Shown: positions 33,245 through 63,869 of the stretch, one piece after another
Position numbering within the stretch: position 1 is the first letter of the stretch
Layout: each line of letters opens with the position of its first letter
DNA from: Saccharothrix sp. NRRL B-16314
Lineage (GTDB): Bacteria > Actinomycetota > Actinomycetes > Mycobacteriales > Pseudonocardiaceae
Length of the DNA: 64,000 nucleotides
Reading direction: 5' to 3'
NCBI RefSeq assembly: GCF_000716595.1
Contig: NZ_JNXC01000007.1
Coordinates: 186,001-250,000, forward strand
Position numbers and translations under genes: made by a program
Notes under the pieces: model-generated
The model's database searches: none
What the model saw: the letters and a program-made list of their open reading frames with translations, nothing else
What the model was told of the DNA's origin: nothing

Positions 33245-33313
33245 GCGGGCGTTTGGGCTGAATGGCGGCTGGGCGGCGTCCTCCGGGGCTGCCTATAGTC
33301 CGGGCGAGATGTC

Positions 33314-33327
33314 TGGGAGCGCTCCCA
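33314..33327. promoter_or_regulatory. CebR operator, perfect consensus
   Basis: TGGGAGCGCTCCCA is identical to the Streptomyces CebR box. It lies 30 bases before the xylanase ATG and about 15 bases after a TATAGT (33294-33299) that could be the -10 element, a position suited to blocking transcription. It is the second such site in the window. Confidence 0.85.
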
Positions 33328-33357
33328 GAAATTGCCCCGACGGAAGAGGGATTCTCG

Positions 33358-35331
33358 ATGAGGAGAGTTCTCGCCGGTGTGCTCGCGACCTCGGTCCTGG
33401 CCGGCCTGGTCGCGATCGCAGCGCAAGCGAGCCCCCGGGCCGCAGCAGCCGACGAGCCGGTGGTCGTCGTCTCGAGCACGTTCGACGACGGAACCGCGCA
33501 AGGGTGGACGGGCCGGGCGAGCGAAGTCGTCGAGCCCAGCACCGCGGTGGCACACAGCGGCACGCACAGCCTCGCCGTCACCGGTCGCACCGCCGGTTGG
33601 CAAGGTCCCGCCCTGAGCATCCTGGACAAAGCGCAGAAGGGCGTCCGCTACGAGCTCTCGGTGTGGGTGCGGCTGGCCGCGGGCCAAGCGGCCACGAGCG
33701 CCGGCCTGTCGGTCGAGCGCCACACCGCCGGCACCCCGTCGTACGACCAGGTGGTCGGCAGCACCGCTGTCACCGCCGACGGGTGGGTCAACCTGAAGGG
33801 CACCTACACGCTCGCCGCCGACGTCGACTTCCTCACCACCTACGTCGAGGCGGCCGGCGCGACCGCCTCGCTGCACATCGACGACTTCTCGATGTCCTAC
33901 ACGCCGCTGCCGCCGATCCAGACCGACATCCCGTCGGTGAAGGACGTGCTGGCCGACCACTTCACGGTGGGCGCGGCGGTCGAGAACGCGCAGATCCTCA
34001 ACAACCACGGGCAGTTGCTCGCCAAGCACTTCAACTCCATCACCCCCGGCAACCAGCTCAAGTGGGACGCCACCGAGCCCGCCGAGGGCACGTTCCGGTT
34101 CGCCGACGCGGACGCCCTGGTCGACTGGGCGAAGGCCAACGGCTCCACGGTGCGCGGGCACACGCTGGTCTGGCACCAGCAGACCCCGGCGTGGGTGTTC
34201 AAGGACGCGGCGGGCAACGACCTGACCGCGACGCCGGAGAGCAAGGCGCTCGTGCTCGCCCGCCTGGACGCGCACATCCGTGCCGTTGTCGGCCACTACG
34301 GCGCCGACATCCCCGTGTGGGACGTGGTGAACGAGGTCATCGACGAGAACCAGTCCGACGGGCTGCGCCGCAGCAAGTGGTTCGAGCTGACCGGGCTGGA
34401 CTACCTCCGCACGGCGTTCCGGGTGGCCCGCGAGGTCGCGCCGGACGCCCGGCTGGTGATCAACGACTACAACACCAACGTGCCGTCGAAGCGCGACAAG
34501 CTCTACGACCTGGTCGTGCAGCTGCGCGCCGAGGGCGTGCCGATCGACGCGGTGGGCCACCAGATGCACATCAACGTGCAGTGGCCGTCCGTCGCCGAGA
34601 CCGAGGCGATGCTGACCAAGTTCGCGCCGCTGGGGATCGACCAGCAGATCACCGAGATGGACATCTCCGTCTACACCGACAACAGCCAGTCGTACCCGAC
34701 GCCGCCGCGCGAGGTGCTGCTCACCCAGGCCTACCGCTACCGCGACATGTTCGAGCTGTACAAGCGCTACTCCGACGACGTCAGCTCGGTCACGTTGTGG
34801 GGCTTGGCGGACGACGGCACCTGGCTGGACAGCTTCCCGGTGACCCGCAAGGACCACCCGCTGCTGTTCGACACCCGCTTGCAGGCCAAGGACGCGTACT
34901 GGGGCGTCGTGGACCCGAGCCGGATCGGCCAGACCACGACGACGACCACGACGACCACCACCACGACGACTACAACCACCACGACCACGACCACGACCAC
35001 GACTGTGCCGCCGTCGACGTGCGCGGTGGCGTACACGATCGGCAGCCAGTGGCAGGGCGGGTTCCAGGGCGAGGTCCGGATCACCAACCGGGGCACCGCG
35101 GCCGTGAACCCGTGGACCTTGGCCTGGTCGTTCGCCGACGGTCAGCGGATCACGCAGCTCTGGGGCGGCGTCCACACCCAGGACGGCGCGTCGGTGACCG
35201 TGCGGCACGCGGCGTGGAACAGCACGCTGCCGCCCGGCGGCTCCGTGTCGTTCGGGTTCCTGGGCAGCTGGACCGGCGCCAACGCCAAGCCGAACTCCTT
35301 CAGCCTCAACGGGGTGGCCTGCCAGAGCTGA
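33358..35331 (+). CDS. secreted GH10 xylanase with two carbohydrate-binding modules
   Basis: 657 residues: signal peptide (1-35), an N-terminal CBM22/CBM4_9-type jelly roll (about 38-185), a GH10 barrel (about 195-535), a poly-Thr linker (about 524-548) and a C-terminal CBM2 (about 553-657). In GH10 the acid/base is Glu326 (WDVVNEV) and the nucleophile Glu433 (ITEMDIS). It cleaves internal beta-1,4-xylosidic bonds of plant xylan with retention. The CebR box upstream ties expression to cello-oligosaccharides. Confidence 0.94.
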   Translation: MRRVLAGVLATSVLAGLVAIAAQASPRAAAADEPVVVVSSTFDDGTAQGWTGRASEVVEPSTAVAHSGTHSLAVTGRTAGWQGPALSILDKAQKGVRYELSVWVRLAAGQAATSAGLSVERHTAGTPSYDQVVGSTAVTADGWVNLKGTYTLAADVDFLTTYVEAAGATASLHIDDFSMSYTPLPPIQTDIPSVKDVLADHFTVGAAVENAQILNNHGQLLAKHFNSITPGNQLKWDATEPAEGTFRFADADALVDWAKANGSTVRGHTLVWHQQTPAWVFKDAAGNDLTATPESKALVLARLDAHIRAVVGHYGADIPVWDVVNEVIDENQSDGLRRSKWFELTGLDYLRTAFRVAREVAPDARLVINDYNTNVPSKRDKLYDLVVQLRAEGVPIDAVGHQMHINVQWPSVAETEAMLTKFAPLGIDQQITEMDISVYTDNSQSYPTPPREVLLTQAYRYRDMFELYKRYSDDVSSVTLWGLADDGTWLDSFPVTRKDHPLLFDTRLQAKDAYWGVVDPSRIGQTTTTTTTTTTTTTTTTTTTTTTTTVPPSTCAVAYTIGSQWQGGFQGEVRITNRGTAAVNPWTLAWSFADGQRITQLWGGVHTQDGASVTVRHAAWNSTLPPGGSVSFGFLGSWTGANAKPNSFSLNGVACQS

Positions 35332-51117: not shown

Positions 51118-51230
51118 GCTCAACGTGCGTGAACAGGTGCTAGCGTGCCCTGGCCGAGTCCGGGGGCGGTGGCAGCTCGGCGCAACGGTCGGGTGGCCGC
51201 GCAATCACGCGAGAATGTGAGGTGCGTGCG

Positions 51231-54200
51231 GTGGGATTGCGGATTCTCGGTCCTCTCCAACTCGTCGTCGGGAGTCGCTCGTACAAGATCGGCGGCCCTC
51301 GGGAGCACGTCGTGCTCGCCACGCTCGCCCTGAAGCCCAACCGGGTCACGTCCGTCGAGCAGTTGGTGGACGCCATCTGGGGCGACGTGCCGCCCTCCAC
51401 CGCACGCGGCCAGATCCAGGGCTGCATCTCCGGCCTGCGCAAGCTGTTCAGCGACGCCGGCATCCCGGACGCGATCAAGACCTGGCCCTCCGGCTACCTG
51501 CTCGCCCTGTCCGACGACGAGCTGGACAGCGGCACGTTCGGCAAGCTCGTCGCCGCCGCGCAGCGGGAAGCCGCGGACAACAAGCCGGACCAGGCGGCGG
51601 CGACGCTGCGTGCCGCGTTGGACCTGTGGCGCGGCCCCGCGCTCGACGGCATCCAGAGCGACGCCGTGCGCCGGGCCGCGGCGTTGCTGGAGGACGCGCG
51701 CATCGCCGCCGTCGAGGAACGGGTGCGGCTCGACCTCGAACTCGGCCGGCACGACGAGATCACCGGCGAGCTGCGCGGACTGGTGGCCGAACACCCCCTG
51801 CGCGAGCGGCTGCACGGCTTCCTGATGCTCGCGCTGTACAGGTCGGGCAGGCAGGCCGAGGCACTGGACGTGTGCCGCCGCGTCCGCGCCACCCTCGTGG
51901 AAGAGCTGGGCATCGACCCCGGCCAGGAGTTGCAGGACCTGGAACACGCGGTGCTCAACCGCGATCCGTCGCTCGACCTGGCGCCGCCGCCCGGCGCGCC
52001 GCCCGAGTCGGCCGAGCAGCCGCCCGCGAGCCCCCGCCAGCTCCCCAGCAGCATCGCCGACTTCATCGGCCGCGACCAGCACATCGCCGAGATCCGCCAC
52101 GTCCTGCCCGGCGCGGGTCGCCCGGAGGCCGCCCGGTACGCGGTGCCGGTCGTGGCGATCTCCGGCCGCGGCGGCGTCGGCAAGTCGACGCTCGCGCTGC
52201 GGGTCGCGCACGAGCTGAGCGAGCACTACCCGGACGGGCACCTCTACGTCGACCTGCAAGGCGGCGAAGTGCGCACCGGTCTGCTCCTGGCCCGGTTCCT
52301 GCGCGCCCTCGGCGTCAGCGGCGCGGTCATGCCGAACGACGTCGCCGAGCGCGCCGAGCTGTACCGCAGCCGGCTCGCCAGCAAGCGGCTGCTGCTCCTG
52401 CTGGACGACGTGACCAGCGAGGACCAGGTGCTGCCGCTGTTACCGGGCAGCCCGAGCTGCGCGGTCATCGTGACCAGCCGGGTCCGGTTGGCGGGGTTGG
52501 CGGGCGCGCACCGGGTCGACCTCGACGCGTTCGACGACGCCACCTCCGCCGAGTTGCTGGCGAAGATCGTCGGCCCCGAACGCCTGCGCGCCGAGCCCGA
52601 CCGCACGGACGAGCTGGTCCGCTACTGCGGCGGCCTGCCGCTGGCGCTGCGGATCGCGGGCGCGCGGCTGGCGTCCCGGCCGCAGTGGCGGATCGCCGAG
52701 CTGACCCGGCGGATGCGCAGCGAGGTGCGCCGGCTGGACGAGTTCAGCCACCACGGCCTGGAGCTGCGTTCCAGCATGGGCATGACCTACCGCAGCCTGC
52801 CCGACCGGGCCAAGCGCCTGTTCCGGCTGTTCGCGCTGATCGAGGCGCCGGACTTCCCCGGCTGGACGGCCGCCGCGCTGCTGGACTCCGACCCCATCGA
52901 CGCCGAGGAGGCGTTGGAGCGGCTGGTCGACGCCCAGATGATCGACACGGTCCACGGGCAGTCGCGACAACTGCGCTACCGCTTCCACGACCTGGTCCGC
53001 GTCTACGCGCGGGAACAGCTGGTGGAGGTCGAGACGGAAGCCGAGCGCGCCGACGCGACGACCAGGGTGCTCGGCGCGTGGCTGGCGCTCGCGGAACGGG
53101 CGCACCGCAAGGAGTACGGCGGCGACCACACGATCCTGCACGGCACCGCGCCGCGGTGGCACGTCGACGAGTGGGCCGACACGGTGCTGGTCGACAACCC
53201 GGTGGACTGGCTGGAGAACGAGCGGTACGCGCTGGTGGCCGCCGTCCGCCAAGCCGCGGCGGCCGGCCTGGACGAGCTGTGCTGGGACCTCGCGCTGACC
53301 GCGGTCAGCGTCTTCGAGGTCAAGGGCTACCTGGACGACTGGCGGGAGACCGCGGAACTGGCGCTGCGCGTGACCGAGTGCGCGGGCAACCGCACCGGCT
53401 GCGGTGCGATGCTCTACTCGCTCGGCACGCTGCACACCATCCAGAAGCAACTGCCCGCGGCCGAGCGGTACTTCACGTCGGCCCTGGCGCTGTTCGAAGC
53501 CGACGACAACGTCCACGGCCAGGCGCTGGTGCTGCGCAACGCCGCGCTGGTCGACCGGATGCGCGGCGATTTCGAGCCCATGCTCGCCAAGTACGGCGAC
53601 GCGCTGGTGAAGATGCGCGCCGTCGGCGACCTCATCGGCGAGGCGAACATCCTGCGCAGCCTGGCGAAGTTCCACATCGACGAGGGTGAGGTCGACGTGG
53701 CCCGCCAGATGCTCGGCGACGCGCTGGCGCTCTGCCGGCGCGCCGGCTACCTGCGCGGTGAGGCGCAGGTGATGAGCCGGTTCGCCGAGCTGCACCTGCG
53801 CGCCGGCCAGGTCCTCCAGGCCAGGCGGGCGCTGCACAGCGTGCTGCGGACCGTGCGGGAGATCGGCGACCGGATCGGCGAAGCGCACGCGTTGTACGGG
53901 CTGGCGATGGTGCGGCGCCGGGAGGGTCGGATGGACAGCGCGGAGACGACGCTCGTGCACGCGTTGTCCATCGCCCAGCGCGTCGGGGACCGCATGATCG
54001 AAGGGCAGTCCCACTTCGCACTGGGGGAGATCGCGGTCGTCCGGGACGACACCGCGAGCGCGGCGGGGCACCTCGCGGAGGCGCGCACGGTGTTCGGCGA
54101 CCTCGGCTCGTCGGTGTGGCTGGCGAAGACGCTGATCCTGCTGTCGGAGGTGCAGGACGGCGGGGACGACCCGACCCTGGCCGACGAGAGCCTGGAGCAG

Positions 54201-54320
54201 GCCGCGATCCTGCTGTCGAAGGTGGATTCGAAGGAAGCGGTCCGGCTGCTCAAGAGCCTGGACACGGCGAGGTCCGCGCTGTTCGACGACGGTGGCGAAG
54301 CGGCGCGGATCTTGGACTAG
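51231..54320 (+). CDS. AfsR/SARP-type regulator with NB-ARC and TPR domains
   Basis: 1029 residues: OmpR-type winged helix (about 1-95; LGPLQLVVGSRSYKIGGPRE), bacterial transcriptional activation domain (about 98-243; RAALDLWRGPALDG), NB-ARC ATPase (about 270-520) with Walker A ISGRGGVGKST and LLLLLDDV, then TPR repeats (about 720-1000). Such proteins activate secondary-metabolite operons. GTG 51231 has GAGG 8 bases upstream and begins directly at the conserved strand. Codon 404 (52440-52442) is TTA, a rare leucine codon read by the bldA tRNA in streptomycetes. Confidence 0.93.
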   Translation: MGLRILGPLQLVVGSRSYKIGGPREHVVLATLALKPNRVTSVEQLVDAIWGDVPPSTARGQIQGCISGLRKLFSDAGIPDAIKTWPSGYLLALSDDELDSGTFGKLVAAAQREAADNKPDQAAATLRAALDLWRGPALDGIQSDAVRRAAALLEDARIAAVEERVRLDLELGRHDEITGELRGLVAEHPLRERLHGFLMLALYRSGRQAEALDVCRRVRATLVEELGIDPGQELQDLEHAVLNRDPSLDLAPPPGAPPESAEQPPASPRQLPSSIADFIGRDQHIAEIRHVLPGAGRPEAARYAVPVVAISGRGGVGKSTLALRVAHELSEHYPDGHLYVDLQGGEVRTGLLLARFLRALGVSGAVMPNDVAERAELYRSRLASKRLLLLLDDVTSEDQVLPLLPGSPSCAVIVTSRVRLAGLAGAHRVDLDAFDDATSAELLAKIVGPERLRAEPDRTDELVRYCGGLPLALRIAGARLASRPQWRIAELTRRMRSEVRRLDEFSHHGLELRSSMGMTYRSLPDRAKRLFRLFALIEAPDFPGWTAAALLDSDPIDAEEALERLVDAQMIDTVHGQSRQLRYRFHDLVRVYAREQLVEVETEAERADATTRVLGAWLALAERAHRKEYGGDHTILHGTAPRWHVDEWADTVLVDNPVDWLENERYALVAAVRQAAAAGLDELCWDLALTAVSVFEVKGYLDDWRETAELALRVTECAGNRTGCGAMLYSLGTLHTIQKQLPAAERYFTSALALFEADDNVHGQALVLRNAALVDRMRGDFEPMLAKYGDALVKMRAVGDLIGEANILRSLAKFHIDEGEVDVARQMLGDALALCRRAGYLRGEAQVMSRFAELHLRAGQVLQARRALHSVLRTVREIGDRIGEAHALYGLAMVRRREGRMDSAETTLVHALSIAQRVGDRMIEGQSHFALGEIAVVRDDTASAAGHLAEARTVFGDLGSSVWLAKTLILLSEVQDGGDDPTLADESLEQAAILLSKVDSKEAVRLLKSLDTARSALFDDGGEAARILD

Positions 54321-54465
54321 CCGGAGTTGCCGGACTTGTCGAAGTGGCCGGAGTTTCCGGACTTGCCCGAGTTGTCGAAGTTGTCGGGGTCGCGGGACTT
54401 GCCGGGGATCGCAGGACTTGCGGTGGTTGCGAGGATCGCACGACTTGCCGGAGTTGCCGGGCGCG
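54321..54465 (+). repeat. 9-bp imperfect tandem array after the SARP gene
   Basis: About sixteen 9-base units with consensus CCGGACTTG/CCGGAGTTG begin at the base after the SARP TAG stop (54318-54320). Units 1-10 keep exact phase; one unit near 54411 has an extra base. Several CCGGA/TCCGG pairs allow small hairpins, so the array may act as a diffuse 3' end. The SARP frame stays open through it as a tripeptide repeat. Confidence 0.75.
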
Positions 54466-54472
54466 CAGTCGG

Positions 54473-54679
54473 TCAGTCCCAGGGCGAGTCGTTGTTGGCG
54501 GACCGCGGCGGCGCGGTGGGCAGGCGCATCGCGTTGCTGGACCCGGTGTCGTTCACCGCGGGGTGGGGCGCGTCCCTCAGCGAGTCGGAGGCCAGGGCCA
54601 CCGGGGACGTCTCGACCACGATGGCGAGGAAAGCCGACAACCCCACGGCGGATCTGGCGAAGTTTCGTTTCGTGAACAC
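54473..54679 (-). CDS. small secreted peptide precursor
   Basis: 68 residues. From GTG 54679 (GGGAG about 11 bases upstream) the N-terminus is KRNFAR, followed by a hydrophobic core and the cleavage site PVALA/SD near residue 30. The predicted mature peptide of about 38 residues is Asp/Asn/Pro-rich, has no Cys and ends NNDSPWD. It converges on the SARP gene and diverges from the cyclodeaminase-like gene. No family is recognised; a signalling, bait or precursor peptide is possible. A TTG at 54697 would add six residues. Confidence 0.55.
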   Translation of the reverse strand: MFTKRNFARSAVGLSAFLAIVVETSPVALASDSLRDAPHPAVNDTGSSNAMRLPTAPPRSANNDSPWD

Positions 54680-54878
54680 GGCGGCGGATTCTCCCAAACC
54701 TCGGGCGGCAGTTTTCTGGTGCTTCTCCGATCTCGACCGTAGCCACGCCGCTGCCGGATGACCGTTGAACGGCTGTCGATGCCTTCCGGGCCACCGGAAG
54801 CGGTTCGGAAGAGGTTGGGAAGCGCGGTGTGCACGATAGGGCGGGAACCGTCCTCATTCGGCACGCCGGAGGCGTCAC

Positions 54879-55847
54879 ATGACCGGAGCTGTCCTGCGAC
54901 TCAGCGCCGACGAGGTCTTGCGCGCGATCGAGGACGTGGACCCGGTCGCCGTGGTCGCCGAAGAGCTGACCGGTGGAACCCACCCGGACGAGCCGCCGAC
55001 GTGCAGGTTCGTCGCCGACCCGGAACGCGCGGCGCACCTGCGGCACGAGCAGACCGCCGTGCAGGACCTGGTCACCGGCGACGTGTGCCTGTTCCCGGCG
55101 TCCTGCCTCCGGCTGGTCCGCGCCGCCGCACTGGTCGGTCTCGCCGCCCGTGAGGTGCACGCCGACGGGGTGGTGACCGCCGCGCTGTTCGCCTCGCCCG
55201 CGGCCACTCCGCTGCACCTCGCCGTCATCGCCCGGCACGTGCCCTGGCTGACCCACATCTCCGTGCACACGGCGGACATCGCGAGTCCGGTGCCGATCGG
55301 ACGGGCGTTGCTGGACCAACTCGAAGCGGCGGGCATCGGCATCTCCGCCACCGCCGACATGCGGCACGCGGCAGCCGGTGCGAACCTGCTGATCACCTCC
55401 GACTTCGCCGCGGACCGGCTGGCGGTCGGGCTGCCGCCGCTCGGTTCGCTGACCGTCAACGCCACCGGCGTCGACCTGCCGTCGGACCTGCTGGACAGCG
55501 TCGACCAGGTCTACGTCGACGACCTCGGCCTGCTGCCGGCCAACCGGCACCGGGCCGTGGCCGCGATGCACCTGGCGGAGCCCGGAACGCACGAAGAGCT
55601 GGCACCACGCACCGAGGGCTGGTACCGCCCGCACGCCGCGTGGCGGCACCGGCGGCGCGTCGAAGCGGACCTCGGCCGGGTGCTCACCGGACACCACCCC
55701 GGACGAAGCGACCCCGACGACATCCTGCTGGTGGAACTGCTCGGCGTCGGCACGGAGAACGCCGCGCTGGGCGGCCGGCTCCAGCGTGCCGCGCTGGAAC
55801 GCGGCCTGGGTGTCCGGCTGGCCGATCGTCCCCGTTCGACCCGATGA
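54879..55847 (+). CDS. ornithine cyclodeaminase/mu-crystallin-like protein with altered cofactor loop
   Basis: 322 residues aligned in layout with the OCD/mu-crystallin/SbnB family: substrate domain with ERAAHLRHEQ, then a Rossmann-like half (VTAALFASPAATPLHLAVIARH, split here at ASPAAT; LTHISVHTADIA; GANLLITSDFA; NATGVDLPSDL). The position of the usual GxGxxA nucleotide loop reads ASPAAT, so NAD(H) binding may be lost or changed. Family members make or use amino-acid imines such as proline from ornithine. GGAGG 6 bases before ATG 54879. It opens a run toward the second regulator. Confidence 0.66.
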   Translation: MTGAVLRLSADEVLRAIEDVDPVAVVAEELTGGTHPDEPPTCRFVADPERAAHLRHEQTAVQDLVTGDVCLFPASCLRLVRAAALVGLAAREVHADGVVTAALFASPAATPLHLAVIARHVPWLTHISVHTADIASPVPIGRALLDQLEAAGIGISATADMRHAAAGANLLITSDFAADRLAVGLPPLGSLTVNATGVDLPSDLLDSVDQVYVDDLGLLPANRHRAVAAMHLAEPGTHEELAPRTEGWYRPHAAWRHRRRVEADLGRVLTGHHPGRSDPDDILLVELLGVGTENAALGGRLQRAALERGLGVRLADRPRSTR

Positions 55848-55931
55848 CCCACACGGCGTGCCCCGCGCCGTGCGCAGTTCCGCGGTGTCCCGCCGGATGC
55901 CGCGTGTCGAGGTGAAGCAGGAGAACCGACC

Positions 55932-56924
55932 ATGCAGACCGTGATCGCGTTACGCCCGGAGATCGTCAGAATATCGGAGCACCAACTCCTCGACGTCTAC
56001 CGCTACGCCACCCGGAACGGCGCGATCGACGGGATCGACCGGGTGGCCGCGGAACTGGGGATGGGCACCCACGAGGTGAACGCCGCGGTGAACCAGCTCC
56101 TGGAGAGCCGGCTGCTGCGCGCCGACCGGGACCGCAGGCTGGTGCCCGTCGACCCCGAGGTGGCGACGGCGCTGCTGGTCTCGCCGATGGAACGGGAGAT
56201 CTACCAGCGCCGCGAGCTGATCGCGCAGATCCGGCAGCGCGCCGAAGCGTTCCGCCAGGACTACGCCGACACCGCCGGGCAGGCCGCGGTGGAGCGGATC
56301 ACGGGCGACCTGGAGGTCAACGGTCTGCTCCGGGTCGCGGCCGAGGCCTGCCGCGAAGAGGTGCTGGTGCTGCGGTCCGGCGCGTTCGACTCCGACGAGC
56401 TGGACGACTTCCTGTCGGTGTGCGGCGGGCTGGTCGAGCGGGGCGTGGCGGTCAGGATGGTCTGCCAGCACCGCGACCGGGCCGACTTCGCCAGCCGGGT
56501 GAAGATCCGGCGGCTGACCGACTCGGGCGCCGTGGTGCGCACGGTGAGCCACCTGCCGCGGACCGCCGTCGTCTTCGACCGGTCGTCGGCGGTGCTGATG
56601 GGCAGCCACCCGGCGGAAGCCGTCGCGTCCTGGGTGCGGCACGACGAGGTGGTCCCGTTCCTGCTGGACGTGTTCAACCACCTGTGGGACGTGGCGACGT
56701 CGTTGGAGGCGGCCGATTCCGGTTACGCCGAGGTCGCCGACGACCTGTTGCAGACGGTGGCCAGCTTGATGGCCAAGGGGTTCACCGACGAGGTCGTCGC
56801 GCGCAAGCTCGGCATGTCGGTGCGCACCTGTCGGCGGCACATCGCCGCGTTGATGCGTGATCTGGACGCGGTGAGCCGGTTCCAGGCGGGCGTGCGCGCT
56901 GCCTGCCGCGCGTTGGTGAGCTGA
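55932..56924 (+). CDS. HTH regulator with LuxR-type C-terminus
   Basis: 330 residues. The N-terminal winged helix resembles TrmB-like domains (LLDVYRYATRNGAIDGIDRV), the middle is a phospholipase-D-like alpha/beta domain (ARAVVFDRSSAVLMGS pattern), and the C-terminus is a LuxR-type helix-turn-helix (KGFTDEVVARKLGMSVRTCR). This composite regulator type is frequent in actinomycete biosynthetic loci. Codon 7 (55950-55952) is TTA, so translation should depend on a bldA-like tRNA. AGGAG precedes ATG 55932. Confidence 0.82.
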   Translation: MQTVIALRPEIVRISEHQLLDVYRYATRNGAIDGIDRVAAELGMGTHEVNAAVNQLLESRLLRADRDRRLVPVDPEVATALLVSPMEREIYQRRELIAQIRQRAEAFRQDYADTAGQAAVERITGDLEVNGLLRVAAEACREEVLVLRSGAFDSDELDDFLSVCGGLVERGVAVRMVCQHRDRADFASRVKIRRLTDSGAVVRTVSHLPRTAVVFDRSSAVLMGSHPAEAVASWVRHDEVVPFLLDVFNHLWDVATSLEAADSGYAEVADDLLQTVASLMAKGFTDEVVARKLGMSVRTCRRHIAALMRDLDAVSRFQAGVRAACRALVS

Positions 56925-56940
56925 GTGCGGTGGTCGGCAC

Positions 56941-56990
56941 TGCCGGGTGCGCCGAGCCCGCCGATCCGGCATGGCTCGGCCCACCCGGCA
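56941..56990. terminator. bidirectional terminator
   Basis: TGCCGGGTG (56941-56949) with CACCCGGCA (56982-56990) and GCCGAGCC (56951-56958) with GGCTCGGC (56973-56980) form a 17-bp stem with one C-C mismatch and a 14-base loop between the converging regulator and condensation genes. Confidence 0.88.
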
Positions 56991-56993
56991 CGG

Positions 56994-58580
56994 TCAGGGT
57001 GCGGTGAGCTTCGTGGCCACGTGCCGCATCGGTCGGCCGCCGGCGAGGTCGTAGACGGAAACGCCGGTCCAGCCCTGCTCGGCGAGGTCCGCGAGCACGC
57101 GGGGGATGCGCAGGACCCGGCCGCCGGCGCTCACGTAGCCGTCGTCCGGGGACGCATCCGGGAGCCCGTTCACCTGGCTCACGGCCGTCAGGAGTGCTTG
57201 TACCGCTTCAGGGTCGGCTGTCTCGTGGGTGGGGGGAACGACCGGGACCGGCTCGGCGAACCCGCAGAGGTCGGTCACGTTGTCGACGGTGAGGTCGGCG
57301 GCGGGGTCGTCGAGCGCGAGCAGCACGGCCTCGTAGCCGCGCAGGAACCGCTCCACAGCGTCGGCGTCCATCACGGTCGACGCGGCGTTGAGCCCGACGA
57401 CCACGGCGTCCTGCAGTTCGATCACGCGGAAGTACGTGTCGGCCCCGTACTCGGCCCAGGCGGCCGGGGTGGGGTTCCAGGTGAACTTCGTCCGCCTGGC
57501 GCGGGTGGCGTGGTCGCCGTGGTTGAGGAAGTTCAGCTCCGAGCCCGTCCGCAGCACCTCGCCCCGCCGGGAACCCTCGCGGGACACCAGCTCCAGCAGC
57601 TCGTCGTACGGGACGTAGGCGTGGTCCTGCCCCTGCCGGAAGCGTTCGGCGGCACGTTTGAGCAACACGGAGAACGGAGGGTTGTCGTGGCAGTCGACCC
57701 GCATCAGCAGCGGCGAGAACAGGCACGTCATCACGTCCGTGCACGGGGTGGCGTCACGGTTGCCGGTGAACGACAGGTGCGAGACCTCACGGCTCCCCGT
57801 GTACGCGGCCATCACCGCCGAGTACACGGCGACGTGCACCAGCGACGGCCACACCCTGTGCCGGTCCGCGACCCGACGGCTCGCCTCCAGCATCGTCGGC
57901 GACGTCAGCGTGGCGCCACGCGCGACGGGGTCGGCCGGTGTGCCGCGCCGCGTGGCGAACACGTCCGGGACGAGCCCGGCGACCTCGTCCCGCCAGTACC
58001 CGAGCGCGATGTCCTTGGCGGCCAGCGCTTCGACGGACGCCTCGTGCGCCGCCAGGTCCGCGGGTTGGCGCAGGACCGGTTCCAGGGCGGCGGGACGGCG
58101 TGCGGCCAGACCCGCGCCCAGCGCCTCGAACTCGCGCTCGAACCGGTCGATCGTCCACGCGTCGAACGCCAGGTGGTTCAGCACCAGCACGACCTGCCTC
58201 GGCGCTCCGTCGCGGGTGATCAGGCACGCCCGCAACGGCCACTCCCCGGCCAGGTCGAACGCGGACGACGACAGCCGTTCGACGACGTCCGCGGGAGTCG
58301 GCGTGCCGTCACGCTCGACGGTCGTTTGGACGAGCGGCACGGCCGCGGGCGGGTGCACGCGCTGCCGCGGCGTGCCGTCGGCGTCCAGGTGGTAGGTCGT
58401 CCGCAACGCCTCGTGCCGGCGCACCAGGTAGTTGAGCGTCGAGCGGACCATCACGGTGGTGACGCCGGCCGGCATGTCGAACCGCAGCACGATGTGGGAC
58501 TCGTGCCGGGCGTGCGGCGGCACCTGGTGGTGTCGCAACCAGATGTAGCGCTGGCCCCAGCACAGGTTCGCACTCTTCAC
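56994..58580 (-). CDS. free-standing NRPS condensation protein with degenerate carrier domain
   Basis: 528 residues from GTG 58580. The condensation domain (about 1-420) has the opening CWGQRYIWL, RRHEALRT and the active-site motif NHLAFDAW: of HHxxxDG the catalytic second His (136) and Asp (140) remain, the first His is Asn and Gly is Ala. The last 75 residues look like a carrier domain (DDGYVSAGG, then GVSVYDLAGGRPMRHVA), but the pantetheine serine position is Val489 (GGRVL). It could join an aminoacyl group from the carrier at 58763 to an acceptor. Transcribed divergently from that carrier gene. Confidence 0.84.
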   Translation of the reverse strand: MKSANLCWGQRYIWLRHHQVPPHARHESHIVLRFDMPAGVTTVMVRSTLNYLVRRHEALRTTYHLDADGTPRQRVHPPAAVPLVQTTVERDGTPTPADVVERLSSSAFDLAGEWPLRACLITRDGAPRQVVLVLNHLAFDAWTIDRFEREFEALGAGLAARRPAALEPVLRQPADLAAHEASVEALAAKDIALGYWRDEVAGLVPDVFATRRGTPADPVARGATLTSPTMLEASRRVADRHRVWPSLVHVAVYSAVMAAYTGSREVSHLSFTGNRDATPCTDVMTCLFSPLLMRVDCHDNPPFSVLLKRAAERFRQGQDHAYVPYDELLELVSREGSRRGEVLRTGSELNFLNHGDHATRARRTKFTWNPTPAAWAEYGADTYFRVIELQDAVVVGLNAASTVMDADAVERFLRGYEAVLLALDDPAADLTVDNVTDLCGFAEPVPVVPPTHETADPEAVQALLTAVSQVNGLPDASPDDGYVSAGGRVLRIPRVLADLAEQGWTGVSVYDLAGGRPMRHVATKLTAP

Positions 58581-58762
58581 GGTGTCCGATGATCGGGGGT
58601 GGGACCGGCCGGGACAATGCGTCCGCCGGTGGCAGCTAGCGGCCGAAATTAATGGCCGGCACCTGCTCGGCGTGATCCTTGACCGGTGCTCGGGTGTTCG
58701 GCGAACCTGACCGTCGACGTGGTGCTCTGTCGGTTCCCGCATCGGCGACCAGAGGTGAAACC
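58581..58762. promoter_or_regulatory. divergent control region of the biosynthetic genes
   Basis: This 182-bp gap contains CGGCC (58640-58644) and GGCCG (58654-58658) around an AT-rich 9-base centre, the perfect palindrome GTTCGGCGAAC (58696-58706), and TTGACC (58679-58684) as a possible -35 toward the carrier gene. These are candidate sites for the locus regulators. I found no clear SARP heptamer direct repeats. Confidence 0.45.
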
Positions 58763-59035
58763 TTGGCTACCTTGGAAATACCCGGCAAATTCCAGGAAAT
58801 CCTCCGGCCGCACCTGCCGTACGCGGATTCCGGCGAGCTGACCGGTGCGAGCGAGCTGGCGAGCCTGGGGCTGGACTCGATGAGCATCGTCCAGCTCCTG
58901 GGTGACATCGAGAGCTCCTACGACGTCGAGCTGCCGGACGAGATCATCGAAGAGAGCACGTTCGCGACCGTCGGCTCCCTCTGGCAGGCGCTGTCACCGT
59001 TGGTGGCCGGGACCGATGCCGACCCGACTCGATGA
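58763..59035 (+). CDS. acyl/peptidyl carrier protein
   Basis: 90 residues. The phosphopantetheine site is Ser39 in SLGLDSMSI, flanked by the usual acidic helix 2 (QLLGDIESSYDVELPDEII). TTG 58763 is chosen because GAGG (58752-58755) lies 7 bases ahead and the frame upstream is out of character. The stop lies inside the ligase gene (20-base overlap), so carrier and ligase are co-translated. It should carry the amino or acyl group activated by that ligase. Confidence 0.9.
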   Translation: MATLEIPGKFQEILRPHLPYADSGELTGASELASLGLDSMSIVQLLGDIESSYDVELPDEIIEESTFATVGSLWQALSPLVAGTDADPTR

Positions 59036-60533
59036 CCTGCCGCGGTGCGGCGCCGACGACCGGCCCGCGCTCACGTTCAAGGACGAGACCCTCACCTACG
59101 GCGAGCTGAACCGGCGAGTCGCCCGCGCGGCGGCCGGTCTGCGCCGCCTCGGCCTGCGCCGCGGCGAGCGGGTGGTGGTGTACGTCGAGAAGCGCCTCGA
59201 AGCGGTCGTCGCGCTGTTCGCGGTGTCCGCCGCCGGCGGCGTCGTGGTGCCGGTGAACCCGGTCTTCAAGGCGCGGCAGGTGGAACACGTCCTCGCCGAC
59301 TGCGCGGCGGCCGTGGTGATCACGACCGCCGAGCGGCACCGGACCCTGAGTGCGACCCCGACCGTGCGGCACGTGGTGCTGATCGGCGAGGTCGACGACG
59401 AGCCGGGCGTGACGGGCTGGGCGGACCTGTGCCCGACGGACCTGTGCTCGGCGGACGGGTCACCGGTGCGCGACGGCGTGATCGACGTCGACGTGGCCGC
59501 GATCTTCTACACGTCCGGCAGCACGGGTGGACCGAAGGGCGTGGTGTTGTCGCACCGCAACCTGCTCGCCGGTGCGGCCAGCGTCGCGGAGTACCTGGAG
59601 CACACCGCGGACGACGTGGTGCTCGCGGTGCTGCCGCTGAGCTTCGACGCCGGGTTCAGCCAGCTCACCACGTCGTTCCTGGCCGGTGCGCACGTGGTGC
59701 TGGTGAACTACCTGCTGCCGCGCGAGGTCGTGCGGCTGTGCGCGCGTCACGGCGTCACCGCGTTGACCTGCGTGCCACCGCTGTGGCTGCAACTGGCGGG
59801 CGTGGCGTGGCCGGAGGAGGCGACGCGGCGGCTGCGGTACTTCGCCAACACGGGAGGCCGGATGCCCGGTCCGACGCTCACCCGGCTGCGCGGGCTCTTC
59901 CCCCTGGCGCGACCGTTCCTGATGTACGGCCTGACCGAGGCGTTCCGGTCCACCTACCTCGACCCGGCCGAGGTCGACCGGCGGCCGGACTCGATCGGGC
60001 GGGCCATCCCGAACGCCGAGGTGCTGGTCGTCCGGCCGGATGGAACGCCGTGCGATCCCGGTGAGCACGGCGAGATCGTGCACCGCGGCGCGCTGGTCGC
60101 CTTGGGCTACTGGAACGACCCGGAGCGCACGGCCGAGCGGTACCGCCCGTACCCGCCCGGTGCGTCGGAGCTCGCGGTGTGGTCGGGCGACGTGGCCTAC
60201 CGCGACGACGAGGGCTTCCTGTACTTCGTCGGCCGCACGGACGACATGATCAAGACCTCGGGTTACCGGGTGAGCCCGGCGGAGATCGAGGAAGCCGCCT
60301 ACGCCACCGGACTGGTGGGCGAAGCGGTCGCGTTCGGCGTGCCCGACGACGCGCTGGGGCAGCACGTCGTCCTGGCGGTCAACGGCCCGTGTGACGTGGA
60401 GACCCTGCTCAAGGCGCTGGCGGTGGACCTGCCGAAGTACATGCTGCCCCGGCGGGTGGAGGTGCTGCCCGAACTGCCCAGGTCGGGCAACGGCAAGTTC
60501 GACCGGACCGAACTGCGGCGGAGGTGCACGTGA
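59016..60533 (+). CDS. AMP-dependent acyl/amino acid-carrier ligase
   Basis: 505 residues, ANL superfamily: P-loop-like YTSGSTGGPKGV, A5 region MYGLTEAF, A7 WSGDVAYRDDEGFLYFVGRTDDMIK read in two parts, and C-terminal Lys in RSGNGKFDR. It activates a carboxylate with ATP and loads the neighbouring carrier. It resembles the exosortase-A-associated acyl-CoA ligase subfamily that travels with a PLP decarboxylase. The substrate cannot be read, but the partner decarboxylase points to an amino acid. Confidence 0.88.
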   Translation: MPTRLDDLPRCGADDRPALTFKDETLTYGELNRRVARAAAGLRRLGLRRGERVVVYVEKRLEAVVALFAVSAAGGVVVPVNPVFKARQVEHVLADCAAAVVITTAERHRTLSATPTVRHVVLIGEVDDEPGVTGWADLCPTDLCSADGSPVRDGVIDVDVAAIFYTSGSTGGPKGVVLSHRNLLAGAASVAEYLEHTADDVVLAVLPLSFDAGFSQLTTSFLAGAHVVLVNYLLPREVVRLCARHGVTALTCVPPLWLQLAGVAWPEEATRRLRYFANTGGRMPGPTLTRLRGLFPLARPFLMYGLTEAFRSTYLDPAEVDRRPDSIGRAIPNAEVLVVRPDGTPCDPGEHGEIVHRGALVALGYWNDPERTAERYRPYPPGASELAVWSGDVAYRDDEGFLYFVGRTDDMIKTSGYRVSPAEIEEAAYATGLVGEAVAFGVPDDALGQHVVLAVNGPCDVETLLKALAVDLPKYMLPRRVEVLPELPRSGNGKFDRTELRRRCT

Positions 60534-61729
60534 ACGGGTTCACCCTGCCGGACGGGCGGTTGGCGGTGGGCGGCGTCGACCTCCCGCTGCTGGCGGCACG
60601 GGTGGGCAGCACGCCGTTCTTCGCCTACGACCGCGCACAGGTGACCGGGCGCGTGGCTGCCGTGCGCGCCGTGCTGCCTTCCTCGGTGCACTTGAGCTAC
60701 GCGGTGAAGGCCAACCCGATGCCCGCGTTGGTGCAGCACCTCGGTGGCTTGGTGGACGGCTTCGACGTGGCGTCGGCGGCCGAGATGCGGCACGCCCTGG
60801 ACACGCCGATGCCCGCGGACCGGATCAGCTTCGCCGGACCGGGCAAGGCCACCGCCGAGTTGACGCAAGCGGTCGCGGCGGGCGTCACCGTCGAACTGGA
60901 GTCGGCCGCCGAGGTGCGACGGGCACAGGAAGTCAGCTCGGCGCTCGGGATCGCGGCACGGGTGGCGGTGCGGGTGAACCCCGACTTCGCCGTGCGCGGG
61001 TCCGGGATGCGACTGGGCGGCGGGCCGCGGCAGTTCGGGATCGACTCGGAGCAGGTGCCGTCGGTGCTGGCGCAGCTGGGCGACCTGGACTTCCAGGGGT
61101 TCCACGTGTTCGCGGGCTCCCAGAACCTCGACGCCCAGAGCCTCTGCGAGGCACAGCGGCAGACCGTCGAACTGGTGCTGGAACTGGCGGACAGCGCGCC
61201 GTCGCCGGTGCGGTACGTGAACCTCGGTGGCGGGTTCGGCATCCCCTACGCGGCCCGCGACAAGCCGCTGGACCTCGCGCCGATCGCGGACAACCTGGCC
61301 GCGCTGGCCGACGTGCTCGGCCCGCGCCTGCCGCGGGCCAGGGTCGTCGTCGAGCTGGGCCGGTACCTGGTCGGCGAGGCGGGCGTCTACGTGACCAGGG
61401 TGGTCGACCGGAAGGTGTCGCGCGGCAAGACGTTCCTGGTCGTGGACGGCGGGATGCACCACCAGCTCGCGGCCTCGGGCAACCTGGGCCAGGTGATCCG
61501 CCGCAACTACCCGATCGCGGTGGCCGGCCCGGTGGGGCGGCCGGTGGAGAAGGTGACCGTGGTCGGCTGCCTCTGCACGCCGTTGGACCTGCTCGGTGAC
61601 GACGTGGAGCTGCCCGCCGCGGATGTAGGCGACCTCGTCGTCGTCTTCCAGGCGGGCGCCTACGGCCTCACCGCCAGCCCGACCGGGTTCCTCAGCCACC
61701 CGGCGCCCGTCGAGGTGCTGGTCGGGTGA
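60530..61729 (+). CDS. PLP-dependent decarboxylase of the DapDC/BtrK type
   Basis: 399 residues, fold III PLP enzyme: Lys60 in SYAVKANP binds PLP, with HVFAGSQNLD, NLGGGFGIPY (phosphate loop), ELGRYLVGEAG, VDGGMHHQLAASGN and the dimer-interface active-site Cys in VGCLCTPLD. The HHQLAASGN segment fits the exosortase-A-associated subfamily and BtrK-like enzymes, which decarboxylate carrier-bound glutamate in butirosin synthesis. GTG 60530 has GGAGG 5 bases ahead and overlaps the ligase stop by four bases. Confidence 0.88.
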   Translation: MNGFTLPDGRLAVGGVDLPLLAARVGSTPFFAYDRAQVTGRVAAVRAVLPSSVHLSYAVKANPMPALVQHLGGLVDGFDVASAAEMRHALDTPMPADRISFAGPGKATAELTQAVAAGVTVELESAAEVRRAQEVSSALGIAARVAVRVNPDFAVRGSGMRLGGGPRQFGIDSEQVPSVLAQLGDLDFQGFHVFAGSQNLDAQSLCEAQRQTVELVLELADSAPSPVRYVNLGGGFGIPYAARDKPLDLAPIADNLAALADVLGPRLPRARVVVELGRYLVGEAGVYVTRVVDRKVSRGKTFLVVDGGMHHQLAASGNLGQVIRRNYPIAVAGPVGRPVEKVTVVGCLCTPLDLLGDDVELPAADVGDLVVVFQAGAYGLTASPTGFLSHPAPVEVLVG

Positions 61730-61763: not shown

Positions 61764-63869
61764 TCACGGTTGCTCCGGAATGGCGGACAGTTCTGCTGGT
61801 GGCCGACCGGGGTGCACGATGCCCAGTCGCTGGGTGGCCCTGGTCATCGCGACGTACAGGTCGTTGTGGCCCAGTGGCGCGGTGCCGAGGATTTCGGCCG
61901 GGTCGACGATCAGGACCGAGTCGAACTCCAGGCCTTTCGCCTGATCGGGGGTGAGCAGCACCACCTTGCCGGTCAGGTCCGGTGGTGTGGCAAGGGAGAG
62001 CGCGGCGGCCAAGGGCTCGATGTGGGCGCTCGGGGCGATGATCGCGAGTTGGCCGTCGGTGTGCGCCGCGGCGAGGGCGGCGGTGGTCGTGATCAGGTCG
62101 GCGCGGGCGGTGCCGACGCGCCACGGTGGTTCGCCGGTCGAGCGGACCGACCGGGGTGGCGGCGTTCCGGGGTGGTGGGCGGCGAGCAGGTCCGCGGTGG
62201 CGGCCATGATCTCCGCCGGTGTGCGGTAGTTGACCGTGAGCCGGGCGAGCTGCCAGCGGTCCTGGACGTGCGGCCGGAGCACCCGCTCCCACGAGGAGGT
62301 GCCGGCCGGGTTCCCGGTCTGGGCGGGGTCCCCGACGACGGTCATCGACCTGGTCGGGCACCGGCGCAGCACCATCCGCCAGGCCATCTCGGACAGTTCC
62401 TGCGCCTCGTCGACGACCACGTGCCCGAACGTGGCGCGGTCGTCGACCCGGCCGATCAGGGCGGCGGCCTCGTCCAGCAACGGGACGTCCGCGGCGCTCC
62501 ACCCGTCGGTCCGCTCGCCGGTCCGCTCGTGGAGGAGGTCCGACACCACGTGCTCCGGTGTCAGCGGCGGCCACAGCGGGTCGAGTGCGGCCCGGACGCC
62601 GGTGTCGGCGAGCAGCGAGTCCGTGAGAGCCGTCCGGTCGGTGTCGTCCAGCAGGGTCCTCGGCCCGTCGTCGTGCTCATCCTGGTCGACCACGACTCCC
62701 GCGGCGGCCAGCGCACGCAGATCCGCCTCGCCGAGCCGGCCGTCCGGGCTGCCGCCGTCGATCGCTTCGCCGGTGTCGGTGAGCACGACCGCCTCCATGC
62801 CCTCGACCAGGCGCCGCGCGAGCACGTCCACGACCTCCCGCTGGAAGACCAGCCTCGCCTGGTTGTGCGGAAGCCCGGTCCGCCTGGCCTTCCGCACGGC
62901 ACGAGCGCAGTCGCCGGGGTCGAGCCGCAGCACCTGCTGCTCGAACTCGACGTCGACCGGGTGGTCCGGTGTCCGGACCCGTGACCGCACCACCGCCGCC
63001 AGCCGTTCGGCCATGGCCGCCGCGCCCTTGAACTCGGTGGTCGAGGGCGGGTCCACCCGGCTGACCCGGACGCCCTGCCCCAGGTCGGCGATGGTCGCCG
63101 TCACCACGCCGTTCTCACCGAGACCCGGCAGGACCTGGCCGATGTAGTCCAGGAAGATCCGGCTGGGACCGACCACCAGGACACCGCGGGTGCGCAGGTG
63201 CGGACGGGTGTAGAGCAGGTACGCGACCCGGTGCAGCGCGACGGCCGTCTTCCCCGTCCCGGGACCGCCCTGCACCACCAGCACCCCGCCGGACTCGTGC
63301 CGGATGATCCGGTCCTGCTCGGCCTGGAGGGTGGTCACGATGTCGTGCATCCGCCCGGTCCGCTCCGCGGTCACCGCCGCCAGCAACGCCGCTTCGCCGA
63401 CCAGACCGTCATCGCCGGCGCCGTCCCGGTCCAGCAACTCGTCGTTCAGCGCGACGACCGTCCGGCCGCGCGTGGTGATGCGGCGCCGTCGCCGCACGCC
63501 GTTCGGAGCGGTCGCCGTCGCGGTGTAGAACGCCCGCGCCACGGGGACGCGCCAGTCCACCAGCAGCGGTTCGCCGCCCTCGTCGCGGAACAGGCCGAGC
63601 CTGCCGATGTAGAGGCGCCGGCCGTCGTGCAGGTCCAGCCGCCCGAAGCACAACCCCTGCTCAACGGCGCCCAGTCGTGCCACCTCCGCCTGCCAGACGG
63701 CCACCGCCTCCCGATCCCCTGCCGCCGCCAGCCGCCCGGCCGCCTCCTCTCGCAGGGCGTCCAGCCGGGCGTACAGGCCCGCCACGTAGTCCTGCTCGAT
63801 GTCGATCTCACGGTCGATGCCACTGCCGGCCACGGCCACGCGGTCCCCCCGGACGACGATCAGTGCCAT
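61764..63869 (-). CDS. helD: HelD/HelR-type RNA polymerase-associated helicase
   Basis: 701 residues, UvrD-like superfamily 1: N-terminal coiled arm with IEQDYVAGLYARLDALREEAAG, Walker A GGPGTGKTAVALHRVAYLL, DEAQELS, GDPAQTGNP, NYRTPAEI and TRATQRLGI. HelD-type proteins enter RNA polymerase and release stalled complexes; HelR relatives displace rifamycin. The two cannot be separated here by eye. The gene converges with the decarboxylase 34 bases away. A strong palindrome precedes it at 63890. Confidence 0.87.
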   Translation of the reverse strand: MALIVVRGDRVAVAGSGIDREIDIEQDYVAGLYARLDALREEAAGRLAAAGDREAVAVWQAEVARLGAVEQGLCFGRLDLHDGRRLYIGRLGLFRDEGGEPLLVDWRVPVARAFYTATATAPNGVRRRRRITTRGRTVVALNDELLDRDGAGDDGLVGEAALLAAVTAERTGRMHDIVTTLQAEQDRIIRHESGGVLVVQGGPGTGKTAVALHRVAYLLYTRPHLRTRGVLVVGPSRIFLDYIGQVLPGLGENGVVTATIADLGQGVRVSRVDPPSTTEFKGAAAMAERLAAVVRSRVRTPDHPVDVEFEQQVLRLDPGDCARAVRKARRTGLPHNQARLVFQREVVDVLARRLVEGMEAVVLTDTGEAIDGGSPDGRLGEADLRALAAAGVVVDQDEHDDGPRTLLDDTDRTALTDSLLADTGVRAALDPLWPPLTPEHVVSDLLHERTGERTDGWSAADVPLLDEAAALIGRVDDRATFGHVVVDEAQELSEMAWRMVLRRCPTRSMTVVGDPAQTGNPAGTSSWERVLRPHVQDRWQLARLTVNYRTPAEIMAATADLLAAHHPGTPPPRSVRSTGEPPWRVGTARADLITTTAALAAAHTDGQLAIIAPSAHIEPLAAALSLATPPDLTGKVVLLTPDQAKGLEFDSVLIVDPAEILGTAPLGHNDLYVAMTRATQRLGIVHPGRPPAELSAIPEQP

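Follow-up and report, generated by a model that had tools for sequence, protein, structure and literature searches.

The stretch analysed here (hereafter the window) comprises 64,000 nucleotides of the draft genome of Saccharothrix sp. NRRL B-16314 (G000; C7:186001-250000, coordinates prefixed C7 being those of the contig and all others those of the window). It carries the genes of a stand-alone condensation (C) protein, C1, and of an acyl carrier protein (ACP), an AMP-forming ligase (LIG) and a pyridoxal phosphate (PLP) decarboxylase (DEC), the last three being referred to as the trio. They form one end of an extensive, so far unexplored gene cluster of the antibiotic type, organised around a polyketide synthase (PKS). 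The set of C1, ACP, LIG and DEC, together with a second condensation protein (C2) and the PKS, is also found in Actinokineospora, in Herbidospora and in a metagenome-assembled genome (MAG) of the Catenulisporales. The cluster probably uses discrete proteins to charge a carrier with an acidic amino acid, to remove CO2 from it there and to attach the resulting unit to the polyketide.

The condensation protein and the trio

The four genes concerned are located in the window as follows:

56994..58580, minus strand: C1, stand-alone condensation protein with a carrier tail lacking the serine (PF00668, 92 bits)
58763..59035, plus strand: ACP, stand-alone carrier protein with the motif LGLDSM (PF00550)
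59016..60533, plus strand: LIG, AMP-forming ligase (TIGR03098, 687 bits, cut-off 592; PF00501)
60530..61729, plus strand: DEC, BtrK-like PLP decarboxylase (TIGR03099, 580 bits, cut-off 478)

The overlaps within the trio, given as 20 and 4 bases in a preliminary description of the window, were found to be exact (59016-59035 for ACP/LIG; GTGA, 60530-60533, for LIG/DEC). The C1 gene, whose GTG start was taken as in the database copy P0008, is convergent with a helix-turn-helix (HTH) regulator gene and divergent from the ACP gene. An open frame on the plus strand (56925-58592), antisense to C1, had no Pfam family and was rejected as a gene. According to the GC content at codon positions, the frames of C1, LIG and DEC are coding, as are those of three accessory genes described below (SARP, OCD and HTH); the ACP frame was not chosen by the simple caller built on this measure, and was called from its Pfam match and its conservation.

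C1 was modelled from a 17-sequence alignment (pLDDT 90.1) as a C domain followed by a four-helix tail with a pLDDT of about 90. Its best fold matches were teixobactin, PCP-C and other C domains of nonribosomal peptide synthetases (NRPS), the enacyloxin release enzyme (6cgo) appearing at rank 46 of the 50 shown, with a TM of 0.58, as one of many C domains. Thus, the carrier-like tail noticed earlier is borne out by the four modelled helices, but its phosphopantetheine serine is an arginine and the gene lies on the minus strand. A total of 246 C1 relatives were found, the best 120 of which belonged by name to Nonomuraea, Streptosporangium, Sphaerisporangium, Herbidospora, Catenulispora, Jatrophihabitans and others. 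Among these 120 proteins (the window's included), 115 had the [NS]HxAxDxW core and five were off-pattern, while none of the 115 readable tails had a serine at the carrier position (93 arginine, 10 glutamine and 12 others), and C1 therefore presumably uses an external carrier. Moreover, an apparent C-terminal remnant of an adenylation (A) domain was seen by eye between the C domain and the tail of some relatives (P0014 and P0015 among them), so that C1 may descend from a module of C domain, A domain and peptidyl carrier protein (PCP) that lost the A domain and the serine. By inspection of the N-termini, the C domain seems to come first in both C1 and C2, with no beta-hairpin docking extension ahead of it.

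Regarding DEC, the closest solved structure was BtrK, the L-glutamyl-[BtrI ACP] decarboxylase (265 bits), and the best diaminopimelate (DAP) decarboxylase reached 166 bits; DEC has VDGGMHH and LCTPxD in common with BtrK, the corresponding motifs of that DAP decarboxylase being VDAGMND and CETGD. A decarboxylase acting only on free diaminopimelate had been named beforehand as a result that would speak against the role proposed for the trio, and DEC is, as judged from its sequence, of the BtrK type and not of the DAP type. In LIG, the FDAG and YGLTEAFRSTYLDP segments were identical in all 12 regions holding this gene (the window's included), which also had an arginine in the loop after YGLTE, this loop being 2 residues shorter than in the ligase LIG' presented below. 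The aspartate of FDAG binds the amino group in related enzymes. In VinN, the ligase of the vicenistatin system, the loop, which includes K330 and R331, lacks one residue relative to the enzymes for alpha-amino acids, according to the available part of the source (PMC11253843), and the VinN structure (3wvn) matched LIG with 212 bits, seventh in the list. By our reading, the bulky residues that VinN has opposite the loop, and its F231 and S299, were not matched in LIG, so the loading of aspartate or glutamate through the side-chain carboxylate can only be inferred. Finally, the serine of the stand-alone ACP was kept in 13 out of 13 regions, counting the window's.

The polyketide synthase beyond the window

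The preliminary description stated that no PKS was present, which holds for the 64 kb only and is an artefact, as the window edge cuts the cluster. Past this edge, an MMPL transporter (C7:249969-252254, minus strand) and C2 (C7:252190-253560, minus strand; PF00668, 91 bits) are followed by a modular type I PKS that begins at C7:253967, 3,967 bases beyond the window end. The first PKS protein has, by Pfam, two ketosynthase (KS), two acyltransferase (AT), two ACP, one dehydratase (DH) and one ketoreductase (KR) domains, and its first KS has glutamine in place of cysteine (DTGQSSSL), which makes it a KSQ loading module; this motif (DTGQSSSL or DSGQSSSL) was found at the PKS start in the six regions examined. 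Later PKS proteins contribute modules containing KR (Pfam and motif), and the Herbidospora counterparts of the next two PKS proteins carry DH and KR annotation, the KS-AT-(DH)-KR-ACP modules in line being those that define a modular type I PKS cluster. By our own count there are about nine modules, nine also being found in the Herbidospora relative. The latter corresponds, by scaffold number and protein sizes, to pks-1 of Komaki et al. 2015, reported in the available part of that paper to have seven genes and nine modules, to be likened to polyenes and to have products yet to be isolated (PMC4599437); the same part neither discusses the trio and the C proteins nor names a product. More generally, searches of open-licence PMC papers, a collection that most subscription chemistry journals fall outside, gave no product name and no publication dealing with the cluster's trio or C proteins.

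The PKS is followed by genes for a 3-hydroxyacyl-CoA dehydrogenase, an ACP, an acyl-CoA dehydrogenase and an HAD protein resembling FkbH; by its gene content, this set would supply an extender unit of the hydroxymalonyl or methoxymalonyl type. Further on, a discrete type II thioesterase (TEII), a second acyl-CoA dehydrogenase, a KS-KR-ACP protein without AT and an ABC transporter were found. No thioesterase domain was detected by Pfam in the first PKS protein, three middle open reading frames (ORFs), the last 718 aa or the KS-KR-ACP protein. Two other middle ORFs and the beginning of the final one were covered by motif only, and the single thioesterase-like motif match falls within a KS. In the draft sequence, the reading frame is broken inside two KS domains of near-identical sequence (G000:C7:282982-287373), where the relative G201 has a single frame of 4,586 aa, and the breaks are likely a draft-assembly problem in repeats.

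Recurrence and gene order in related clusters

The distribution of DEC and C1 was studied in 297 genomes from 46 genera of the window's own family. DEC was present in 12 genomes with identities of 72-100%, followed by a gap down to 41%, and C1 (E<=1e-60) in 13 genomes, namely all 12 with DEC plus G257 (36% identity), giving a Fisher p of 1.7e-20 (6/6 vs. 1/40 by genus, p 7.5e-7). Similarly, among 200 genomes of Streptosporangiaceae, the family of Herbidospora, with DEC taken at 65% identity or more, 12 had DEC, 17 had C1 and 11 had both (p 3.7e-13). These p-values overstate the association, since the cuts were set at gaps seen in the results and the genomes are related. The conservation of the condensation and trio genes together in related genomes, on which the preliminary description had made its reading depend, was thus found in 12 of 12 DEC genomes of the own family and in 11 of 12 Streptosporangiaceae. 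The distance between DEC and C1 was around 2 kb in G000, G201 and G228 and around 2-4 kb in nine of the 11 Streptosporangiaceae pairs, the other two being G729 (about 11 kb) and G824 (different contigs). Furthermore, C1 was not found in the other sampled genomes of the window's own genus, and the cluster is therefore sporadic; in a phylum sample of 396 genomes (E<=1e-70), C1 appeared in the window's genome only. A search of genome contigs gave six clear C1 relatives among 78 loci listed (49-54% identity), the other 72 (22-31%) being presumably ordinary C domains that were excluded from all counts.

A PKS was located near the trio in all 12 regions holding DEC. G201 and G228 (Actinokineospora, taken as A. 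alba and A. xionganensis) have the greater part of the cluster, and the genes around the trio are arranged in them as in the window. Four Herbidospora records presented the order PKS1-C2-DEC-LIG-ACP-C1-HTH, the fifth record starting within the block, and the Catenulisporales MAG presented PKS1, C2, DEC and C1, then LIG and ACP after the extender genes. In G030, C1, C2, the trio, the PKS and the extender genes appeared in a rearranged order together with an asparagine-synthetase gene, and in G057, G291 and G126 the trio, SARP, HTH and extender genes were accompanied by a shorter PKS.

In six Streptosporangiaceae genomes (G709, G752, G781, G851, G862 and G870), C1 occurred without a close DEC, G870 having only two matches of 38-39%. 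In about 20 kb read from each, all six retained PKS1 (61-68%), C2 (52-57%), ACP (62-66%), C1 and HTH, DEC and a close LIG being absent from those stretches. Between C2 and C1, each of the six had a different ligase, LIG' (72-93% identical to that of G752 and about 30% to LIG), which scored above the cut-off of TIGR01733 (general amino-acid adenylation) and below that of DltA. This suggests two alternative ways of charging one and the same carrier, by LIG plus DEC or by LIG'. In the window's cluster, no additional ligase of this second type was detected.

Several further loci with related genes were observed. In the window genome, a second BtrK-like decarboxylase (36-37%) lies directly 5′ of an AMP ligase (34%) at C22:54970-58294 (L065, L066), and no match to the cluster's PKS was found in the 40 kb read around this pair. 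A second group of BtrK-like genes, about 40% identical to DEC, occurs with an ACP (L022, L069, L070, L071 and the contig interval G057:C1:3810000-3823300) and, by eye, with varied combinations of ATP-grasp-like, ketosynthase-III-like and acyl-CoA dehydrogenase partners; in six genomes (G057, G109, G126, G158, G194 and G291), a gene of this group lies around 34-44 kb from the trio. In G873 (L225:8751-14807), LIG and DEC homologues sharing 62-64% identity with those of the window occur with an ACP next to a gene for a Wzy_C protein (O-antigen ligase) and a weak match to Wzz, which connects the pair known here from a PKS cluster with a polysaccharide setting. Some Streptosporangiaceae clusters have an unknown protein of about 300 aa (LPD16 just above cut-off) beside C1, and a similar stretch appears, by eye, fused to C1 in P0025. 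A cysteine-desulfurase-like gene was also seen in clusters of this family (L219:7070-9140; similar in L074, L222, L227 and L228), and a sulfur-containing product is possible for these versions.

The remaining genes considered in the window are accessory to the cluster or lie outside the conserved system:

51222..54320, plus strand: SARP-type regulator, accessory (BTAD 156 bits, NB-ARC and TPR; Pfam)
54879..55847, plus strand: ornithine-cyclodeaminase (OCD)/SbnB-like protein, possibly degenerate, accessory (Pfam 24.5 bits, cut-off 24)
55932..56924, plus strand: LuxR-type HTH regulator of the cluster (Pfam 21.9 bits, below the 23.5 cut-off)
61764..63869, minus strand: HelR/HelD-like ATPase of the RNA-polymerase-recycling type, inside the cluster and outside the conserved system (NF041258, 590 bits, cut-off 1100)

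The SARP, OCD-like, second HTH, condensation, carrier, ligase and decarboxylase genes listed in the preliminary description are all real by Pfam and NCBIfam, with weak matches for OCD and HTH, the N-terminal third of the Pfam profile having no match in the OCD-like protein. The small secreted peptide of the same list (54473-54697, minus strand, 74 aa) was rejected as a part and is probably not a conserved gene, because its matches in 12 related regions were weak and chance-like (best E 0.022). Across those regions, SARP was 71% identical in G228, 64% in G030 and 38-40% elsewhere, the OCD-like protein was found in G228 (48%) and G030 (41%) only, and the HTH regulator appeared in 11 of them (49-69%) and in all six LIG'-type clusters (53-57%). 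Neither SARP nor OCD could be located in the part of G201 that was fetched, and the same holds for MMPL in G228. The HelR-like ATPase was rejected as a cluster part, as it had no match at 1e-10 in any of the 12 regions fetched, G201 and G228 among them. HelR proteins are linked to rifamycin tolerance, and its presence within the cluster of the window genome might be a hint of a product directed at RNA polymerase or a chance neighbour. A GH10 xylanase with CBM2 and CBM4/9 domains (33262-35331) is unrelated to the cluster.

Proposed mechanism and alternatives

In the most economical model, the trio and C1 would be the separate parts of a dissociated NRPS-type module that works for a modular type I PKS lacking a terminal thioesterase, and in this module LIG would act as the A domain, ACP as the PCP, DEC as on-carrier tailoring and C1 as the C domain, the PKS chain being the donor. 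LIG would adenylate an acidic amino acid (aspartate, glutamate or 3-methylaspartate) via its side-chain carboxylate and load it onto the ACP, and DEC would strip the alpha-carboxylate on the carrier to give an omega-aminoacyl-ACP (beta-alanyl, aminobutyryl or similar). C1, its own carrier being dead, would take the charged ACP as acceptor partner and link its amine with the acyl chain bound to the final carrier of the PKS, so that the chain would be off-loaded as an amide, and release would be finished by C2 or the discrete TEII. We give this complete scheme, with on-carrier decarboxylation and off-loading by C1, about an even chance of being right. More tentatively, and rather doubtful at present, the clusters may share a fully dissociated and exchangeable off-loading module. 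In it, a C protein whose own carrier is dead would cooperate with a free ACP charged either by LIG' with a ready-made amino acid or by LIG followed by decarboxylation, the nucleophile that releases the chain being made on the carrier.

Each part of the scheme has a known counterpart. The resemblance to BtrI/BtrJ/BtrK of butirosin, proposed in the preliminary description, stands for DEC, whose closest solved structure is BtrK, but LIG is AMP-forming (PF00501) as VinN is, and BtrJ is an ATP-grasp ligase. The closer make-up is that of VinN/VinL/VinO in vicenistatin, which likewise unites an AMP-forming ligase, a stand-alone ACP and a PLP decarboxylase in a type I PKS cluster (sequence compared for VinN only); there, according to the available part of the source, 3-methylaspartate is loaded and the thioester must precede decarboxylation (PMC11284099). 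Unlike in vicenistatin, where, in the same part, the unit is a PKS starter handled with VinM, VinK and VinJ, the PKS here begins with a KSQ loading module of its own and is accompanied by two C proteins. Neither a VinK-like transferase nor a VinJ-like hydrolase was noticed among the cluster ORFs, no dedicated search having been made. As for release, in the enacyloxin system, as far as the available part of the source goes, the PKS chain is released by a stand-alone carrier and a C protein, Bamb_5915/Bamb_5917 (PMC13324335), and the present PKS, with no terminal thioesterase in the scanned stretches, is also accompanied by a stand-alone C protein and a carrier. The beta-hairpin docking extension of that system appears, by inspection, to be absent from C1 and C2. 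Enacyloxin release is not known to involve on-carrier decarboxylation, and no PKS is known to release its chain onto an amine formed by such a step. What would be new is the combination of VinN/VinL/VinO-like chemistry with enacyloxin-like release by a C protein. Foxicin, whose PKS carries a C domain, was set aside as a relative given its one-ACP loading module and fused C domain in the available part of the source (PMC5318452).

Some observations weigh against the proposed scheme. DEC and C1 were around 2 kb apart in just three of the 12 own-family genomes, while the distance was 35-46 kb in G057, G109, G126, G158, G194, G278 and G291 and 60 kb in G030, at opposite ends of one cluster, and the two genes were on separate contigs in G011. 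Moreover, the C1 of G057, G291 and G126 is diverged (41-43%; 41-47% when G729 is included) and sits in an adjoining sub-cluster with a second BtrK-like gene, C2 not being found in the regions read from these four genomes, so that C1 may serve the neighbouring sub-cluster there. LIG and DEC also occur without C1 in the polysaccharide-type locus of G873. The exchange between LIG plus DEC and LIG' is not a strict either/or, as LIG' (43-46%) was present alongside the trio in G030, G057 and G126, and a strict version of it is weakened by these three regions. Finally, two condensation proteins are present, and the roles proposed here for C1 and C2 are tentative.

Four other explanations were weighed. 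Following the logic of butirosin, the omega-aminoacyl-ACP could be the donor with which C1 or C2 acylates the completed polyketide at a hydroxyl or an amine. Ester formation is known for C domains, BtrK makes an acyl side chain and two C proteins are available, but the PKS would be left with no release route except TEII. The free amine of the donor would need protection, and the window's cluster showed no second, LIG'-like ligase. We consider such a decoration unlikely. It is also quite improbable that the omega-aminoacyl-ACP is given to the PKS as a starter, as in vicenistatin, to yield a macrolactam: the set of enzymes is that of VinN/VinL/VinO as available in the source (PMC11284099), the VinN structure matches LIG and the KS-KR-ACP protein without AT could in principle accept a second starter, but this explanation is disfavoured because the KSQ-AT loading module in all six regions makes its own starter. 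In addition, no discrete acyltransferase was noticed among the cluster ORFs, which were not searched specifically for one, and C1 and C2 would be left without a role.

The assignment of LIG and DEC to an exosortase or exopolysaccharide system that is a mere neighbour here draws on their scores above the TIGR03098 and TIGR03099 cut-offs, the families of the exosortase-A-associated pair, and on the G873 pair next to Wzy_C and the weak Wzz match. On the other hand, LIG and DEC are linked to a PKS in three groups of actinobacteria, and the lack of an exosortase noted for the window extended to the whole genome, where PF09721 reached at best 21 bits against a cut-off of 25.7, on contig C5; we regard this assignment as very improbable. 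Lastly, the "minimal amide-forming pathway of its own kind" of the preliminary description, self-contained and without a PKS, fits the 64 kb window taken alone, but is contradicted by the PKS that begins just past its end and lies near the trio in every DEC-holding region, and we find it scarcely credible.

Overall, the off-loading scheme and its distribution point to a PKS family that is uncharacterised but recurs in three or more groups of the rarer actinobacteria, and small proteins that can be exchanged for one another probably determine how its chains end. If the scheme is true, these proteins would offer a plug-in route for varied omega-amino acids at the polyketide terminus, with LIG plus DEC and LIG' as natural variants, and the TIGR03098/TIGR03099 pair, so far named only after exosortase loci, would gain a testable role.

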